Source of the DNA: Aequorivita echinoideorum
Lineage (GTDB): Bacteria; Bacteroidota; Bacteroidia; Flavobacteriales; Flavobacteriaceae
NCBI RefSeq assembly: GCF_018476645.1
Contig: NZ_JAHCTB010000004.1
Span: 124,001 to 188,000 of the forward strand
Reading direction: 5' to 3'
DNA: 64,000 bases
Shown here: positions 9,993 through 17,712 of the stretch, one piece after another
Position numbering within the stretch: position 1 is the stretch's first letter
Layout: each line of letters opens with the position of its first letter
Program-made: the position numbers and the translations under genes
The notes under the pieces: generated by a model
The model's database searches: none
The model's input: the letters and a program-made list of their open reading frames with translations, nothing else
What the model was told of the DNA's origin: nothing

Positions 9993-12185
9993 GTGGCAGA
10001 AACTGACATTTATGCAGCCCTAAAGAAATATTTCGGATTCACCCGTTTCAAAGGTTTACAAGAAGAAGTTGTAAAGAGTATTTTAAATAGGCAAAATACA
10101 TTCGTGATTATGCCTACCGGAGGTGGGAAGTCACTCTGTTACCAGTTGCCGGCACTTATGCAGGAAGGCACAGCCATTGTGGTTTCACCGCTCATTGCTC
10201 TTATGAAAAACCAAGTGGATGCGCTGCGTTCCCTTTCTTCGGAAGAAGGCATCGCGCACGTCTTAAATTCTTCCCTCAATAAAACCGAAGTAAAGCAAGT
10301 GAAGAGCGATATCGTCAACGGTATTACCAAACTTCTATACGTAGCCCCGGAATCCCTGACCAAAGACGAATATGTTGAATTTCTTCAATCGGTAAAAATA
10401 TCCTTCGTGGCTATTGATGAAGCGCATTGCATCAGCGAATGGGGGCACGACTTTAGACCGGAATATCGTAATCTCCGCACCATTATTCAGCGCATCGGCA
10501 ATGATATTCCCATTATTGGCCTTACGGCAACCGCCACCCCCAAGGTGCAGGAAGATATTCTTAAAAATTTAGGGATGCAGGATGCCAATACCTTCAAAGC
10601 GTCCTTCAACAGGCCCAATCTGTATTATGAAATTAGGCCAAAAACAAAAAATGTCGATTCAGACATCATCCGCTTCGTAAAACAGAACGAGGGCAAGAGC
10701 GGGATTATCTATTGCCTAAGCCGAAAAAGAGTAGAGGAATTGGCACAGACCCTTCAGGTAAACGGCGTCAAGGCCGTTCCGTATCACGCTGGGCTAGATG
10801 GCAAGACACGCGTTAAGCATCAAGATATGTTCTTGATGGAAGACGTGGATGTGGTGGTGGCAACCATTGCATTCGGGATGGGCATTGATAAGCCAGATGT
10901 GCGTTTCGTAATACATAACGACATCCCAAAAAGTATTGAAAGCTACTACCAAGAGACTGGTCGTGCCGGTAGGGATGGGGGAGAAGGCCATTGCCTCGCC
11001 TTTTACAGCTATAAGGATGTTGAAAAATTAGAGAAATTTATGAGCGGCAAGCCCGTGGCAGAACAGGAAATTGGCCACGCCCTATTGCAGGAAATCGTTG
11101 GTTTCGCCGAAACTTCCATTTCACGTAGAAAATTTATCCTCCATTATTTCGGTGAGGAATTTGACAATGCAACGGGCGAGGGCGGAATGATGGACGACAA
11201 CATGCGCCACCCAAAAAACAAGCACGAAGCGCAGGACGATGCCAAATTGCTGCTGGAAATTGTCCAAAAGACCAACCAACAGTACAAAAGCAAGGAAATT
11301 GTAAACGTACTGGTGGGCAAGGTAAACGCACTCATAAAATCCCACCGTACAGATTCCCAAACTTATTTCGGTACGGGTCAGGCGCACGATTCCTCCTACT
11401 GGATGGCCCTGTTGCGGCAGCTCTTGGTAGCCGGATATCTTAAAAAGGATATTGAAACCTACGGAATAATCAAGATTACGGACCAGGGGAAGGCGTTTAT
11501 AAAAAATCCGGTCTCTTTCATGATGGCGGAAGACCATTCCTTCAAGGATGCGAATGATGATGCCATTGTATCCGTCCAGAAGGGGGGGGACACGGCAGAT
11601 GAGAATCTGTTCAAATTGCTAAAAGCGGAACTGAAAAAAGTAGCGCACGATCTGGATTTGCCTCCATTCGTTATTTTTCAGGAACCATCCCTGGAAGATA
11701 TGGCGCTTAAATATCCAGTTACCTTAGAGGAGCTTTCCAATGTTCACGGAGTGGGCGAGGGCAAGGCAAAAAAGTACGGAAAATCATTCGTGAAATTGAT
11801 CCAGCGGTATGTGGAGGAAAACGACATCATCCGCCCAGAGGACTTCGTAGTAAAATCTACAGGGACTAATAGTTCTTTAAAACTTTACATAATCCAAAGT
11901 GTGGACCGCAAACTCTCCCTGCCAGATATTGCCGGGGCCAAGGGGCTCGAAATGCCTGAATTCATTAAGGAAATGGAAGCCATAGTCTACAGCGGTACCA
12001 AGCTGAATATCAATTATTGGATTGATGAAGTGCTTGATGAAGACCAACAAGAAGAAATCCACGACTATTTTCTGGAGGCCAAAACAGATAAAATTGAAGA
12101 AGCCTTGGAAGAATTTGATGGCGATTATGATGAAGAAGAATTACGGTTATACCGAATTAAATTCATCAGTGAAGTGGGTAATTAG
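9993..12185 (+). CDS. recQ: ATP-dependent DNA helicase RecQ
   Basis: A 3'-5' helicase for recombination and fork repair. It shows TGGGKS (42-47), DEAH (142-145) with CISEWGHDFR, motif VI QETGRAGRDG, then the RQC winged-helix region and an HRDC domain (LSNVHGVGEGKAKKYG). It ends in an acidic tail. The 730-residue length suits the Bacteroidota form. The start is GTG at 9993. The stop codon lies inside a heptad repeat. Confidence 0.95.
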   Translation: MAETDIYAALKKYFGFTRFKGLQEEVVKSILNRQNTFVIMPTGGGKSLCYQLPALMQEGTAIVVSPLIALMKNQVDALRSLSSEEGIAHVLNSSLNKTEVKQVKSDIVNGITKLLYVAPESLTKDEYVEFLQSVKISFVAIDEAHCISEWGHDFRPEYRNLRTIIQRIGNDIPIIGLTATATPKVQEDILKNLGMQDANTFKASFNRPNLYYEIRPKTKNVDSDIIRFVKQNEGKSGIIYCLSRKRVEELAQTLQVNGVKAVPYHAGLDGKTRVKHQDMFLMEDVDVVVATIAFGMGIDKPDVRFVIHNDIPKSIESYYQETGRAGRDGGEGHCLAFYSYKDVEKLEKFMSGKPVAEQEIGHALLQEIVGFAETSISRRKFILHYFGEEFDNATGEGGMMDDNMRHPKNKHEAQDDAKLLLEIVQKTNQQYKSKEIVNVLVGKVNALIKSHRTDSQTYFGTGQAHDSSYWMALLRQLLVAGYLKKDIETYGIIKITDQGKAFIKNPVSFMMAEDHSFKDANDDAIVSVQKGGDTADENLFKLLKAELKKVAHDLDLPPFVIFQEPSLEDMALKYPVTLEELSNVHGVGEGKAKKYGKSFVKLIQRYVEENDIIRPEDFVVKSTGTNSSLKLYIIQSVDRKLSLPDIAGAKGLEMPEFIKEMEAIVYSGTKLNINYWIDEVLDEDQQEEIHDYFLEAKTDKIEEALEEFDGDYDEEELRLYRIKFISEVGN

Positions 12186-12220
12186 CGATTAACAATTAGC
12201 AATTAGCAATTAACAATTAG
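12179..12220. repeat. Heptad repeat at the recQ stop codon
   Basis: Six consecutive 7-bp units: TAATTAG, CGATTAA, CAATTAG, CAATTAG, CAATTAA, CAATTAG. The first unit contains the recQ stop TAG (12183-12185). Confidence 0.8.
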
Positions 12221-14974: not shown

Positions 14975-15003
14975 TATTAATCCAGAAACCTTTTTTGAAT
15001 TTT

Positions 15004-15094
15004 GAATTATGAATTATGAATTATGAATTATGAATTATGAATTATGAATTATGAATTATGAATTATGAATTATGAATTATGAATTATGAATTAT
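15004..15094. repeat. Tandem array of GAATTAT, 13 perfect copies
   Basis: Thirteen uninterrupted 7-bp units, followed by a degenerate GAATAT. It begins about 30 bp upstream of the ctaA start codon. Confidence 0.95.
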
Positions 15095-15156
15095 GAATAT
15101 TCACTTTTAAGTATCAAACTTTGAATTTTAAATCTTTAACCTTAAATTCATCATAT

Positions 15157-15233
15157 CACACATCACACATCACACATCACACATCACACATCACACATCA
15201 CACACCACACATCACACACCACACATCACGCAT
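15157..15233. repeat. Tandem array of CACACAT, 11 copies
   Basis: Eleven 7-bp units; the first six are perfect. The remainder alternate CACACAC and CACACAT and the last is CACGCAT. The array ends 2 bp from the stop codon of the CCA nucleotidyltransferase gene. Confidence 0.93.
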
Positions 15234-15235
15234 TA

Positions 15236-16666
15236 CTAATTGTTCATTGGTTTTAAACCGATTGCCACTCCTTTTTTGAGCATAAAAGCTTTTGCGGCTT
15301 CATATTCATTTGGAATTTCCCCTTCCAGAATTGCTTCTTTTATGGCATCCTTAATAATCCCGATTTCCCGCGATGGTTTCAGATTGAAAGTTTCCATAAT
15401 TTCCTCGCCAGTTACGGGTGGCTGAAAATTTCTGATTTGGTCACGTTCTTCAACTTCAGCAATTTTATCACGAACCAATTGAAAATTAGCGTGGTATTTT
15501 CTAAATTTCTTCGGGTTTTTAGTCGTGATATCAGCTTCGCAGAGGGTCATCAAATCATCTACGTATTCCCCGGCATCAAAAATTAATCTACGCACGGCGC
15601 TGTCCGTTACTTCTTCCGAAGCCAGCCCAACGGGTCGTGAACTCATCAAAACCATTTTTTGTACAAACTTCATTTTGTCGTTCAATGGCATTTTCAGCCT
15701 TTTGAAAAGTTTGTAAACCATTTTTGAACCCACAAATTCGTGCGCGTGGAAAGTCCATCCCAATTTTTTATCAAACTTTTTCGTGGGCGCTTTGCCAATA
15801 TCGTGCAGGAGAGCCGCCCAGCGCAACCATAAGTCGTTCGTCGTTTCGGAAATATTGTCCACTACTTCCAGCGTATGCCAAAAATTGTCTTTATGTGTTT
15901 GGCCTTCCTTTTCATCGATTCCTTGTAACGCTACCAATTCTGGTAAAATATGCGGTAACAGTCCCGTTTTATGAAGTAGCGCAAATCCTTTGGAAGGCGT
16001 ATCGGAAAGCAAAATTTTATGGATTTCGTCCACCACGCGTTCTTTGGAAATAATTTTTATTCTATCTGCATTTTTGGTAATGGATTCCAATGAGGCATCC
16101 TCAATCTTAAAATTTAATTGGGAAGCAAACCGAATGGCTCTAAGCATCCGCAACGGATCATCACTATACGTAACATCTGGGTCTAGAGGTGTTCGTATTA
16201 ATTTATTTTGAAGATCCTCTATTCCGTTGAAGGGGTCCAAAAGCTCACCAAAGTTAGCTTCATTTAAACTTAAAGCGAGCGCATTTATGGTAAAATCGCG
16301 TCTATTTTGGTCGTCTGCAAGCGTTCCGGCTTTTACGTTCGGATTTCGACTTTCAGCGGTGTACGATTCCTTTCTGGCACCTACAAATTCGAGCTCTATC
16401 CCCCCACTTTTCAGCATTGCGGTTCCATAATTCTTGAAAATGGAGACCTGTGGTTTTCCGGGAAGTAATTTTGAAACTTCCTCCGCAAGTTCAATCCCGC
16501 TGCCCACTGCGACAACATCGATATCCTTGGCATCACCGCGTTTTAAAATATAATCGCGTACAAATCCGCCAATGACATAGCTTTCCAATTTAAGATTTTC
16601 TGAAGCTTTTGAAATTTTCCTAAAAATGGGATTTTCTAAAGCGGATGTGTAGGTTTTTTTTGACAC
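15236..16666 (-). CDS. cca: CCA tRNA nucleotidyltransferase with HD domain
   Basis: It adds or repairs the 3' CCA of tRNAs. The class II polymerase head shows GGFVRD (33-38) and the metal-binding DID (48-50), then RRDFTINAL and the DPLRMLRAIRFA helix. An HD domain follows (ALLHDIGK). The 476-residue length fits the Bacteroidota form. The start is GTG at 16666. The inverted-repeat-bounded GxxExxY unit lies immediately upstream. Confidence 0.92.
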   Translation of the reverse strand: MSKKTYTSALENPIFRKISKASENLKLESYVIGGFVRDYILKRGDAKDIDVVAVGSGIELAEEVSKLLPGKPQVSIFKNYGTAMLKSGGIELEFVGARKESYTAESRNPNVKAGTLADDQNRRDFTINALALSLNEANFGELLDPFNGIEDLQNKLIRTPLDPDVTYSDDPLRMLRAIRFASQLNFKIEDASLESITKNADRIKIISKERVVDEIHKILLSDTPSKGFALLHKTGLLPHILPELVALQGIDEKEGQTHKDNFWHTLEVVDNISETTNDLWLRWAALLHDIGKAPTKKFDKKLGWTFHAHEFVGSKMVYKLFKRLKMPLNDKMKFVQKMVLMSSRPVGLASEEVTDSAVRRLIFDAGEYVDDLMTLCEADITTKNPKKFRKYHANFQLVRDKIAEVEERDQIRNFQPPVTGEEIMETFNLKPSREIGIIKDAIKEAILEGEIPNEYEAAKAFMLKKGVAIGLKPMNN

Positions 16667-16695
16667 GTTTTATTTTTCCGAAATGTTGTTATTTT

Positions 16696-17122
16696 ACCAC
16701 GAATTCACGAATATTTTTATAGAACTATTCTTTTGTATTCTAGACCTTCACCCTTGAAATTTGCCAGAATCGCCAATTTATTTTTAGAAATTTTCAAATA
16801 ATTAATGCATTGACCTAAATGCATATCAGTCAGTAATTCTACCGTCTTTACTTCTAAAATTATTTTGTCAAAAATCACAAAATCTGCGTAAAACTTATGC
16901 TTCAGGATAATATCCTTATAATTTATGGAGAACTCCTTTTCTCTTACGAATAAAATATTTCTCAGGTTAAATTCATATTCCAAAGCATCTTTATAAACAA
17001 TTTCAGATAACCCATTTCCTAAATTATTAAATACTTCGTAAAGGCATCCAACTATTTCGTAGCTTTCCTGTTTGTAAATTATATTTGACATTCAAAAAAA
17101 GGTATGTTTGTGTATTCGTGGT
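16696..17122. mobile_element. Putative inverted-repeat-bounded unit carrying a GxxExxY gene
   Basis: ACCACGAATTCACGAATAT at 16696-16714 matches in inverse orientation ACCACGAATACACAAACAT at 17104-17122 (16 of 19 positions). The enclosed 389 bp are filled by one ORF: its stop is 2 bp from one repeat and its start 12 bp from the other. No transposase is encoded, and no target-site duplication was established. Mobility is therefore an inference. Confidence 0.45.
16717..17091 (-). CDS. GxxExxY family protein
   Basis: 124 residues with the naming motif GLSEIVY near residue 28-34. A downstream YADFVIFDKIILEVKTV follows, whose Asp, Glu and Lys resemble a PD-(D/E)xK nuclease core, then a conserved LGQCINYLKISKNKLAILANF. 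The family is widespread in Bacteroidota and Planctomycetes with no established function; nuclease activity is inferred from fold resemblance. It stands between cca and tsaC on the same strand. Confidence 0.82.
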   Translation of the reverse strand: MSNIIYKQESYEIVGCLYEVFNNLGNGLSEIVYKDALEYEFNLRNILFVREKEFSINYKDIILKHKFYADFVIFDKIILEVKTVELLTDMHLGQCINYLKISKNKLAILANFKGEGLEYKRIVL

Positions 17123-17147
17123 TAATTTCATTTAATTTCCATTAACC
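17120..17147. repeat. Hairpin between tsaC and the GxxExxY gene
   Basis: GGTTAAT (17120-17126) pairs with ATTAACC (17141-17147) around a 14-nt loop, overlapping the outer end of the right inverted repeat. There is no T-tract, so a terminator role for tsaC is doubtful. Confidence 0.4.
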
Positions 17148-17151
17148 CATT

Positions 17152-17712
17152 TTATGATCGAATCACTTTTACGCCGCCATCATTGCCAAGCTTAATGATC
17201 GCCGATGGTTTTGCTGATTTTTTCTCGCGGTGCAAATTTACAACATAGTCCACGCCCTCCAAAATTACAGGATCTATTTCAGCGTAGGATTGCGGTGTTT
17301 TTGAGCCGCTCACATTTGCTGAAGTGGAAACAAGTGGTTTTCGTAATTTCTGAATAAGTTTTTTGCAGAATTCATCTTTTGTTACCCGCACGGCAAGAGT
17401 ATTGTCCTCGGCTATCAGGTTTTCTGAAACGTGCAACGGGCGATCGTAGATAATAGTAGTTGGCTTCCGCGCAAATTTTAAGATATCGTATGCCACTTCG
17501 GGCACCTCTTCAATATATTGGTTCAACATTTTAAAATCTTGGACCAAGCAAATCATTGATTTGCTTTCGGCGCGCTGTTTTAACTTGAAAATTTTTTCAA
17601 CGGCTTCAAAGTTGGTGGCGTCGCAGCCTATTCCCCAAACAGTATCCGTTGGGTAAAGGATGATGCCGCCGCGTTTTAAGACCGTAAAGGCTTGTTCAAT
17701 TTGTTCTATCAC
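17152..17712 (-). CDS. tsaC: L-threonylcarbamoyladenylate synthase (TsaC/Sua5 family)
   Basis: It makes threonylcarbamoyl-AMP for t6A37 of ANN-decoding tRNAs. It shows PTDTVWG (21-27), KQR (45-47) and STSANVSG (129-136), all features of the true TsaC branch. The 186-residue length means it lacks the extra Sua5 domain. The start is GTG at 17712 and overlaps the stop of the upstream glycosyltransferase (GTGA). A YciO-type relative lies at 59217. Confidence 0.9.
   Translation of the reverse strand: MIEQIEQAFTVLKRGGIILYPTDTVWGIGCDATNFEAVEKIFKLKQRAESKSMICLVQDFKMLNQYIEEVPEVAYDILKFARKPTTIIYDRPLHVSENLIAEDNTLAVRVTKDEFCKKLIQKLRKPLVSTSANVSGSKTPQSYAEIDPVILEGVDYVVNLHREKKSAKPSAIIKLGNDGGVKVIRS

Follow-up and report, generated by a model that had tools for sequence, protein, structure and literature searches.

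A 427-bp unit between tsaC and cca of Aequorivita echinoideorum, in which a single GxxExxY gene stands between inverted arrays of heptamers, is best explained as the gene-bearing member of a REPIN/RAYT-like palindromic family whose resident gene is a predicted PD-(D/E)XK nuclease; on the combined analysis, the probability of this reading is put at roughly 0.55. Compared across genomes, the gene and its repeats suggest a mobile hairpin family that occurs in many phyla and that, as far as the open-licence literature goes, seems not to have been described so far.

The unit at the tsaC–cca junction

The unit lies in the window, that is, the whole 64-kb stretch of DNA analysed, and its parts and neighbours are as follows (window positions):

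16696..17122, minus strand: whole unit, GxxExxY gene within inverted heptamer-array arms (defined by sequence and comparison)
16717..17091, minus strand: GxxExxY gene, 124 aa, predicted PD-(D/E)XK protein (profile matches to TIGR04256 and PF13366; model with mean pLDDT 95)
16693..16714, plus strand: arm past the stop codon, with CACGAAT units at 16698-16704 and 16706-16712
17104..17125, minus strand: arm ahead of the start codon, with CACGAAT at 17114-17120 and CACAAAC at 17106-17112, both on the minus strand
17152..17712, minus strand: tsaC (L-threonylcarbamoyladenylate synthase), upstream neighbour (TIGR00057 above its cut-off)
15236..16666, minus strand: cca (tRNA nucleotidyltransferase-like), downstream neighbour (Pfam domains above cut-off, NCBIfam equivalogs below)

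The 19-bp imperfect inverted repeats described in an earlier, sequence-only reading were found as claimed: 16696-16714 (plus) and 17104-17122 (minus) are identical at 16 of 19 positions after reverse complementation, they are located 2 bp from the stop and 12 bp from the start of the open reading frame, and the unit that they delimit measures 427 bp, with tsaC and cca on its two sides. A repeat search extends the pair to 22 nt with 82% complementarity, each arm consisting of two CACGAAT-type heptamers 8 bp apart. Within the window, and allowing up to three mismatches, each arm matches only itself and its partner (0.00–0.01 matches expected from shuffles). The locus gives p=0.025 in the inverted-repeat test with 200-bp flanks and, taken alone, is modest evidence for the inverted repeats; it is the comparison across loci, rather than the window locus alone, that removes chance as the source of the arms.

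The GxxExxY gene of the unit is the sole TIGR04256/PF13366 match in the 2.93-Mb genome. The arm pattern, again with up to three mismatches, is found at 19 places in this genome, the two of the window included, versus 2 for a reversed-pattern control. These sites include five or six short hairpins without a gene, built as ACCACGAATTCACGAATAT, a short loop and ATATTCGTGAATTCGTGGT and decayed to varying degrees; the remaining ones, read by eye, are single arms plus some likely chance matches. Some solo hairpins (L010, L013 and L016) contain, or lie next to, another palindrome, CCTACAAGGTTTTAAAACCTTGTAGG, or a sequence close to it.

Enclosure of GxxExxY genes by heptamer arrays

The host-family set comprised 199 genomes of 198 genera (one per genus); many of all the loci compared come from MAGs. 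A GxxExxY match was present in 41 of the 199, several with many copies, some of them decayed. Seventy-one host-family loci were fetched, of which 60 had a usable frame and 11 lacked an open frame carrying the motif. The other loci were the best 80 relatives from a scan of one genome per species (84,980 species), 4 or 5 of which were removed on account of short flanks. The sequence-only reading had set in advance a search for the arms around GxxExxY genes of relatives; they recur there and are not confined to the window locus. In the flanks of the host-family loci, degenerate heptamers with the pattern C[AG]CN[AG]A[GT] form arrays that point inward, in several flavours (CACGAAT, CACGGAT, CGCAGAT, CACAGAG and CGCAAAG). 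One small GxxExxY clade (L051, L066, L067 and L075) has quite different, TGTCTGAACTATGATT-like arms, and the upstream neighbours are related in L051, L066 and L067.

Enclosure was scored against 200 dinucleotide shuffles of the downstream flank, the control being the same test shifted by 900 bp, with 100 shuffles. This null was preferred to one made from the arms of other loci, which is inflated because different loci share flavours. At p≤0.01, enclosure was detected at 87 of 135 loci (32/60 in the host family and 55/75 of the other loci, drawn from the best 80 listed), versus 2 of 129 shifted controls (0/60 and 2/69, respectively); at p≤0.05, the counts were 42/60 and 59/75 (the latter again from the best 80 listed), with 2/60 and 7/69 in the controls. 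Enclosure did not reach p≤0.01 at the other 48 of the 135 loci (28/60 and 20/75). The significant loci among the family and the best 80 other loci belong to 12 named phyla, several of them represented by one locus only; the single locus tested from Myxococcota was not significant. One phylum entry is doubtful, being a single Rhizobium-titled MAG that groups with Flavobacterium in the protein tree and may be misbinned.

The orientation of the heptamers follows the same arrangement. Counted with a pattern derived from the host-family loci themselves, inward heptamers outnumber outward ones by 127 to 44 upstream and 127 to 35 downstream at 58 host-family loci, with 10 and 21 in the control stretch, and by 154 to 75 upstream and 192 to 65 downstream at 74 other loci, with 24 and 25 in the control (69 loci). 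The own partner arm outscores about 94–95% of foreign arms (median).

Arm flavour and protein clade

The arms and the GxxExxY protein co-vary. On the protein tree, arm flavour requires 25 changes versus 54.1 in shuffles, none of 200 shuffles being as low. The tree contains 132 rows, 108 of them labelled by flavour, after exclusion of 8 of 140 proteins for length or X; its resolution is weak with proteins of 124 residues, 43 of 129 inner branches being well supported. The GGAG flavour is unclustered on this tree (9 changes versus a shuffled mean of 9.7). In four genomes (G013, G061, G088 and G157), copies within one genome differ in flavour along with clade.

Dispersed gene-less hairpins

The exact CACGAAT double heptamer is found in 22 of the 41 GxxExxY-positive host-family genomes versus 13 of the 158 negative ones (p=8e-10), and the CGCAAAG double heptamer in 12 and 9 of them, respectively. 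The mean number of CACGAAT arms per genome, a figure that includes the arms of the GxxExxY genes themselves, is 8.9 in the 11 genomes with a CACGAAT-flavoured gene, 0.93 in the 30 other positives and 0.13 in the 158 negatives. Of the two gene types, eight genomes possess the CACGAAT-flavoured one alone; seven of these contain the CACGAAT arm and three the CGCAAAG arm, one of them (G125) holding just the wrong arm, CGCAAAG; the eight with only the CGCAAAG-flavoured type contain the CGCAAAG arm in six cases and the CACGAAT arm in three. The match between arm and gene within genomes is a tendency and no strict rule. In a congener, six among the copies fetched are hairpins of 44–48 bp.

Outside the host family, the CGCAAAG motif was counted in 23 GxxExxY genomes hand-picked from the best 80 other loci and was found in 16 of them, namely 13 of the 15 chosen for CGCAAAG-like flanks and 3 of the 8 chosen for other flavours, while 7 of the 23 had none. 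An Acidobacteria genome (G229) with one GxxExxY gene contains 265 exact CGCAAAG motifs (control, 0); among the 100 places listed there are 35 pairs 64–66 bp apart and 2 pairs 29–30 bp apart. Eighteen copies were chosen as pairs, 16 of the longer kind and 2 of the shorter. In 15 of the 18, all of the 64–66-bp kind, the two halves resemble the two flanks of the gene, one the upstream and the other the downstream one, above 200 letter shuffles, in a comparison that forces opposite halves; when this is not imposed, both flanks fall on one half in 12 of 16 passing copies. Given this correspondence between halves and flanks, the G229 gene seems to occupy the loop of an element whose many other copies lack a gene. 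The alignment of these copies folds with 40 pairs, 4 of which are changed on both sides, and covariation is slight (term −0.26).

The site of one gene-less hairpin was followed among 28 host-genus genomes and was filled in 7, compact in 15, different in 5 and incomplete in 1. At a junction between convergent genes, a CACGAAT hairpin is present in 11 of the 28, one of them much decayed. At the same junction, eight genomes (L290, L291 and L293–L298) have a different, GAGCGCAGTCGA...TCGACTGCGCTC-like palindrome. Because a CACGAAT hairpin or another palindrome recurs at this place, such hairpins may also be retained as gene ends.

Insertion sites and history

Thirty of the 60 host-family loci fall at four junctions common to several genera, the names of which derive from one locus each:

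Junction A, methionyl aminopeptidase–methyltransferase: 13 genera
Junction B, tsaC–cca: 8 genomes, 7 genera (in L079, cca alone was seen)
Junction C, alaS–GSCFA: 5
Junction D, ABC ATPase–permease pair: 4 genomes

The proteins at junction A belong to two clades that are deeply separated and differ in their arms. At tsaC–cca, the 28 host-genus genomes show an intact GxxExxY gene in 10, a broken one in 4, a compact interval in which the gene is absent in 5, other sequence in its place in 8, and a contig end in 1. This comparison of cca–tsaC intervals had also been proposed by the sequence-only reading: alleles without the gene exist, and the gene is not conserved in place throughout the family. 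Some of the eight genomes with other sequence have CGCAAAG- or CACAAAG-like repeats in it. In L105, L102, L103, L106 and L116, the tsaC–cca interval without the gene contains CACAAAG or CGCAAAG hairpins or their remnants, which gives the impression that this junction has served several flavours.

Close relatives can differ in whether they have a gene unit, and likewise for one gene-less hairpin. Sister species differ in the presence of GxxExxY in both host trees for L094/L095 and L099/L100; L108 and L116 are sisters with and without the gene in the second host tree only, the first one pairing L108 with the gene-bearing L107. Two GxxExxY lineages, about 63–67% identical, are intermixed on the host tree, a weak conflict (AU p 0.040–0.043). 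The compact tsaC–cca alleles have a common cca start, which departs from that of all other alleles over its first 30 bp and, to a small degree, over the following 30 bp, after which there is no difference.

These observations divide the claim that the unit is a compact cassette or MITE-like element. The gene and its arms do form a unit, such arms standing around further GxxExxY genes elsewhere, other phyla included; copies with these ends but no gene are present, and so are tsaC–cca sites that lack the gene; and terminal inverted repeats without a transposase are found together with those gene-less copies. A fresh insertion finds no support in the concentration of half of the host-family loci at four shared junctions or in the difference between compact and occupied alleles over the initial ~30 bp of cca. 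No target duplication was seen by eye at tsaC–cca or at the S262 site, where empty and filled flanks differ, and a recent cassette insertion with target duplication has no support there.

The GxxExxY protein

The protein matches the GxxExxY family TIGR04256 with 123.5 bits (cut-off 35) and PF13366 with 111.3 bits (cut-off 22). In a Foldseek search with the model of the 124-residue chain, the only matches at E≤0.001 were chains of SSO0001 (E 8e-5, TM 0.60), which we take to be a Cas4, followed by lambda exonuclease (E 3e-3) and the Cas4 Pcal_0546. Residues E30, D70, E80 and K82 are invariant, and Q94 and Y98 nearly so, among 55 sequences; 3 of 57 sequences with stops or X were omitted from the structure alignment. 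A Q-x3-Y motif marks RecB-type nucleases. By the D...ExK core and the modelled fold, GxxExxY is assigned to the PD-(D/E)XK superfamily and is a predicted nuclease. The ratio dN/dS is 0.02–0.08 in the 11 of 21 pairs for which dS came out, dS being saturated in the other 10; the ratios are rough, because dS exceeds 1 in 10 of those 11 pairs and is below 1 in one, and they indicate purifying selection on the gene.

No sequence homologue was found in the PDB at E≤1, nor any PADLOC or PHROG match at E≤0.001. At E≤1e-5, relatives of the protein of another host-family member (L041) turned up in 7 of 72,556 plasmid records and in none of 50,697 phage records. A defence or phage gene was rejected on the blank PADLOC and PHROG searches, the few plasmid relatives and the lack of phage ones. 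The open-licence literature yielded no described function for GxxExxY, PF13366, PDDEXK_3 or TIGR04256, apart from one passing mention, and no paper in it matched six repeat strings or, by title, joined GxxExxY to such repeats. In the passages of the FLSHclust paper that were covered, a 23S IVS protein is named in a figure legend and GxxExxY does not appear (PMC10910872).

A parallel architecture around four-helix-bundle genes

Genes of the four-helix-bundle family TIGR02436 are found in 145 of the 199 host-family genomes, with 21 matches in the genome studied here (for example, L348). After 2 of 30 loci were dropped, 13 of 28 host-family loci (L340–L369) proved to be enclosed by inverted arrays of 7–8-mers, a count made without a shifted control; the array units include GTTGATA, TTAGACT and GTTATAA. 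The inverted-array architecture by itself does not require a nuclease. In the excerpt covered of a Flavobacterium columnare paper (PMC5524665), guanylate kinase and a nicotinate-nucleotide adenylyltransferase are listed as the neighbours on either side of a four-helix-bundle gene.

Comparison with known systems

The closest parallel is offered by RAYT genes, which are described, in the part of the paper covered, as lying between two inverted REPs that are also dispersed in the genome, repeats and protein co-evolving (PMC2817692). The GxxExxY system is similar in that a gene is found between inverted repeats, gene-less copies are dispersed, and repeat and protein co-evolve, with the unclustered GGAG label set beside the low number of flavour changes. 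It differs in the protein, which matches only PDDEXK_3/GxxExxY and is predicted to be a PD-(D/E)XK enzyme instead of an HUH/Y1 transposase; in the arms, which are direct heptamer arrays that pair arm to arm instead of a GC-rich palindrome headed by GT(A/G)G; and in its spread over many phyla, with enclosure not significant at the 48 loci given above. With neither an HUH enzyme nor a palindrome headed by GT(A/G)G, the unit stands outside the REPIN/RAYT family itself.

An intervening sequence (IVS) of Coxiella 23S rRNA, a stem-loop of 428 nt that bears an ORF and is cut by RNase III, is reported in the available portion of its source (PMC4990558). The size and one-ORF layout of that element resemble those of the 427-bp unit, and four-helix-bundle genes, the S23p type carried by such sequences, likewise stand within inverted arrays of heptamer-like units elsewhere. 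Unlike it, the present unit encodes an unrelated protein, is inserted at the protein-gene junction tsaC–cca and not in 23S rRNA, and has arms without sign of selection on RNA pairing. Cas4, lambda exonuclease and RecB-type nucleases provide the nearest folds and are alike in the conserved residues (E30, D70, E80 and K82 invariant, Q94 and Y98 nearly so), whereas GxxExxY has 124 residues only, has tsaC and cca as neighbours instead of CRISPR or recombination genes, and has no sequence match among PDB entries.

MITEs are small inverted-repeat elements without a gene, and homing endonuclease genes occur sporadically at fixed junctions. The GxxExxY unit differs from the former in having no recognised ends of a known transposase and no target duplication seen. 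It is like the latter in its sporadic presence at fixed junctions and in the existence of alleles without the gene, and unlike them in its gene-less hairpin population; we know of no such populations for homing genes.

Proposed mechanism and alternative explanations

In the reading that we prefer, one or a few resident copies would carry the gene in a loop flanked by two inverted arms, with gene-less hairpins dispersed elsewhere. The resident gene would encode a minimal Cas4/RecB-like PD-(D/E)XK nuclease, which may recognise its own heptamer array as an extruded cruciform or a single-strand hairpin and may nick or trim it, and this processing would lead to gene-less hairpins being copied in trans to new intergenic sites. 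The gene-bearing unit would mostly spread or be lost in place, in a homing-like manner, by recombination at a conserved operon junction. The broader proposal, that GxxExxY proteins are the mobilising enzymes of an undescribed class of mobile hairpins in about a dozen phyla, with four-helix-bundle genes as a second, parallel class, is tentative, and we give it slightly less than an even chance.

The nuclease may instead be a passenger, since unrelated four-helix-bundle genes have the same build: host processes such as replication slippage or an unrelated transposase would spread the arrays, small genes would ride in them, and the agreement of arm and protein would be linkage. Both the other degenerate arrays around four-helix-bundle genes and the different palindrome at the convergent junction in eight other host-genus genomes fit this explanation, but we regard it as unlikely in view of the dose of CACGAAT arms, which is high where a gene of that flavour resides and low elsewhere, and of the apparent purifying selection on the gene; linkage alone also leaves unexplained that unlinked gene-less copies tend towards the flavour of the resident gene.

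Two further explanations would place the arms at the RNA level or make them secondary. If the arms paired in the operon mRNA, as in the 23S IVS, the segment would be excised or the flanking genes coupled, with selection acting on RNA. The Coxiella element sets a precedent, GxxExxY runs in the same direction as both neighbours in 52 of 56 host-family pairs, and the arms directly adjoin the stop of tsaC and the start of cca, the aligned GTG start of cca lying inside the last arm in several relatives; outside the host-family set, however, only 34 of 55 pairs are codirectional, and gene-less hairpins occur between convergent genes too. RNA-level pairing received no support from wobble asymmetry, G-U-compatible arm differences numbering 76 sense versus 94 antisense at loci with p≤0.01, with no excess (the count of 10 versus 12 in the 13 four-helix-bundle loci is too small to tell). 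A known RNA family was rejected, as none of seven loci gave an Rfam match at the gathering score; one chance-level match fell in the window stretch. We consider the RNA explanation distinctly improbable. A free-standing homing endonuclease would cut the empty tsaC–cca junction, with those of other lineages cutting theirs, and repair from an occupied allele would copy the gene with a short co-converted flank, the arms being secondary. The sporadic presence at junctions A–D, the two deeply split clades at junction A, the sister species that differ and the ~30-bp allele-specific block in cca all agree with such a process, although one short block common to the compact alleles could also be ancestral, and a homing gene would not be expected to have gene-less hairpins with its arms dispersed in the genome. 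We consider this explanation very improbable.

The cognate dispersed palindromes give the widespread GxxExxY family a candidate role. If the reading as a palindromic family with a resident nuclease is true, a nuclease-based system joins the known routes by which bacterial genomes gain repeat populations, and an origin is supplied for intergenic repeats of the CGCAAAG, CACAGAG and CACGAAT types. The question is then raised why IVS-type four-helix-bundle genes share the same build.

Tandem arrays in the window

The window also contains three tandem arrays with a 7-bp unit, TGAATTA (14.7 copies, 14996-15098), ATCACAC (11.3 copies, 15155-15233) and AATTAGC (5.9 copies, 12180-12220). Two of them adjoin the 3′ end of cca, and their 7-bp period resembles that of the arm arrays of the four-helix-bundle elements.
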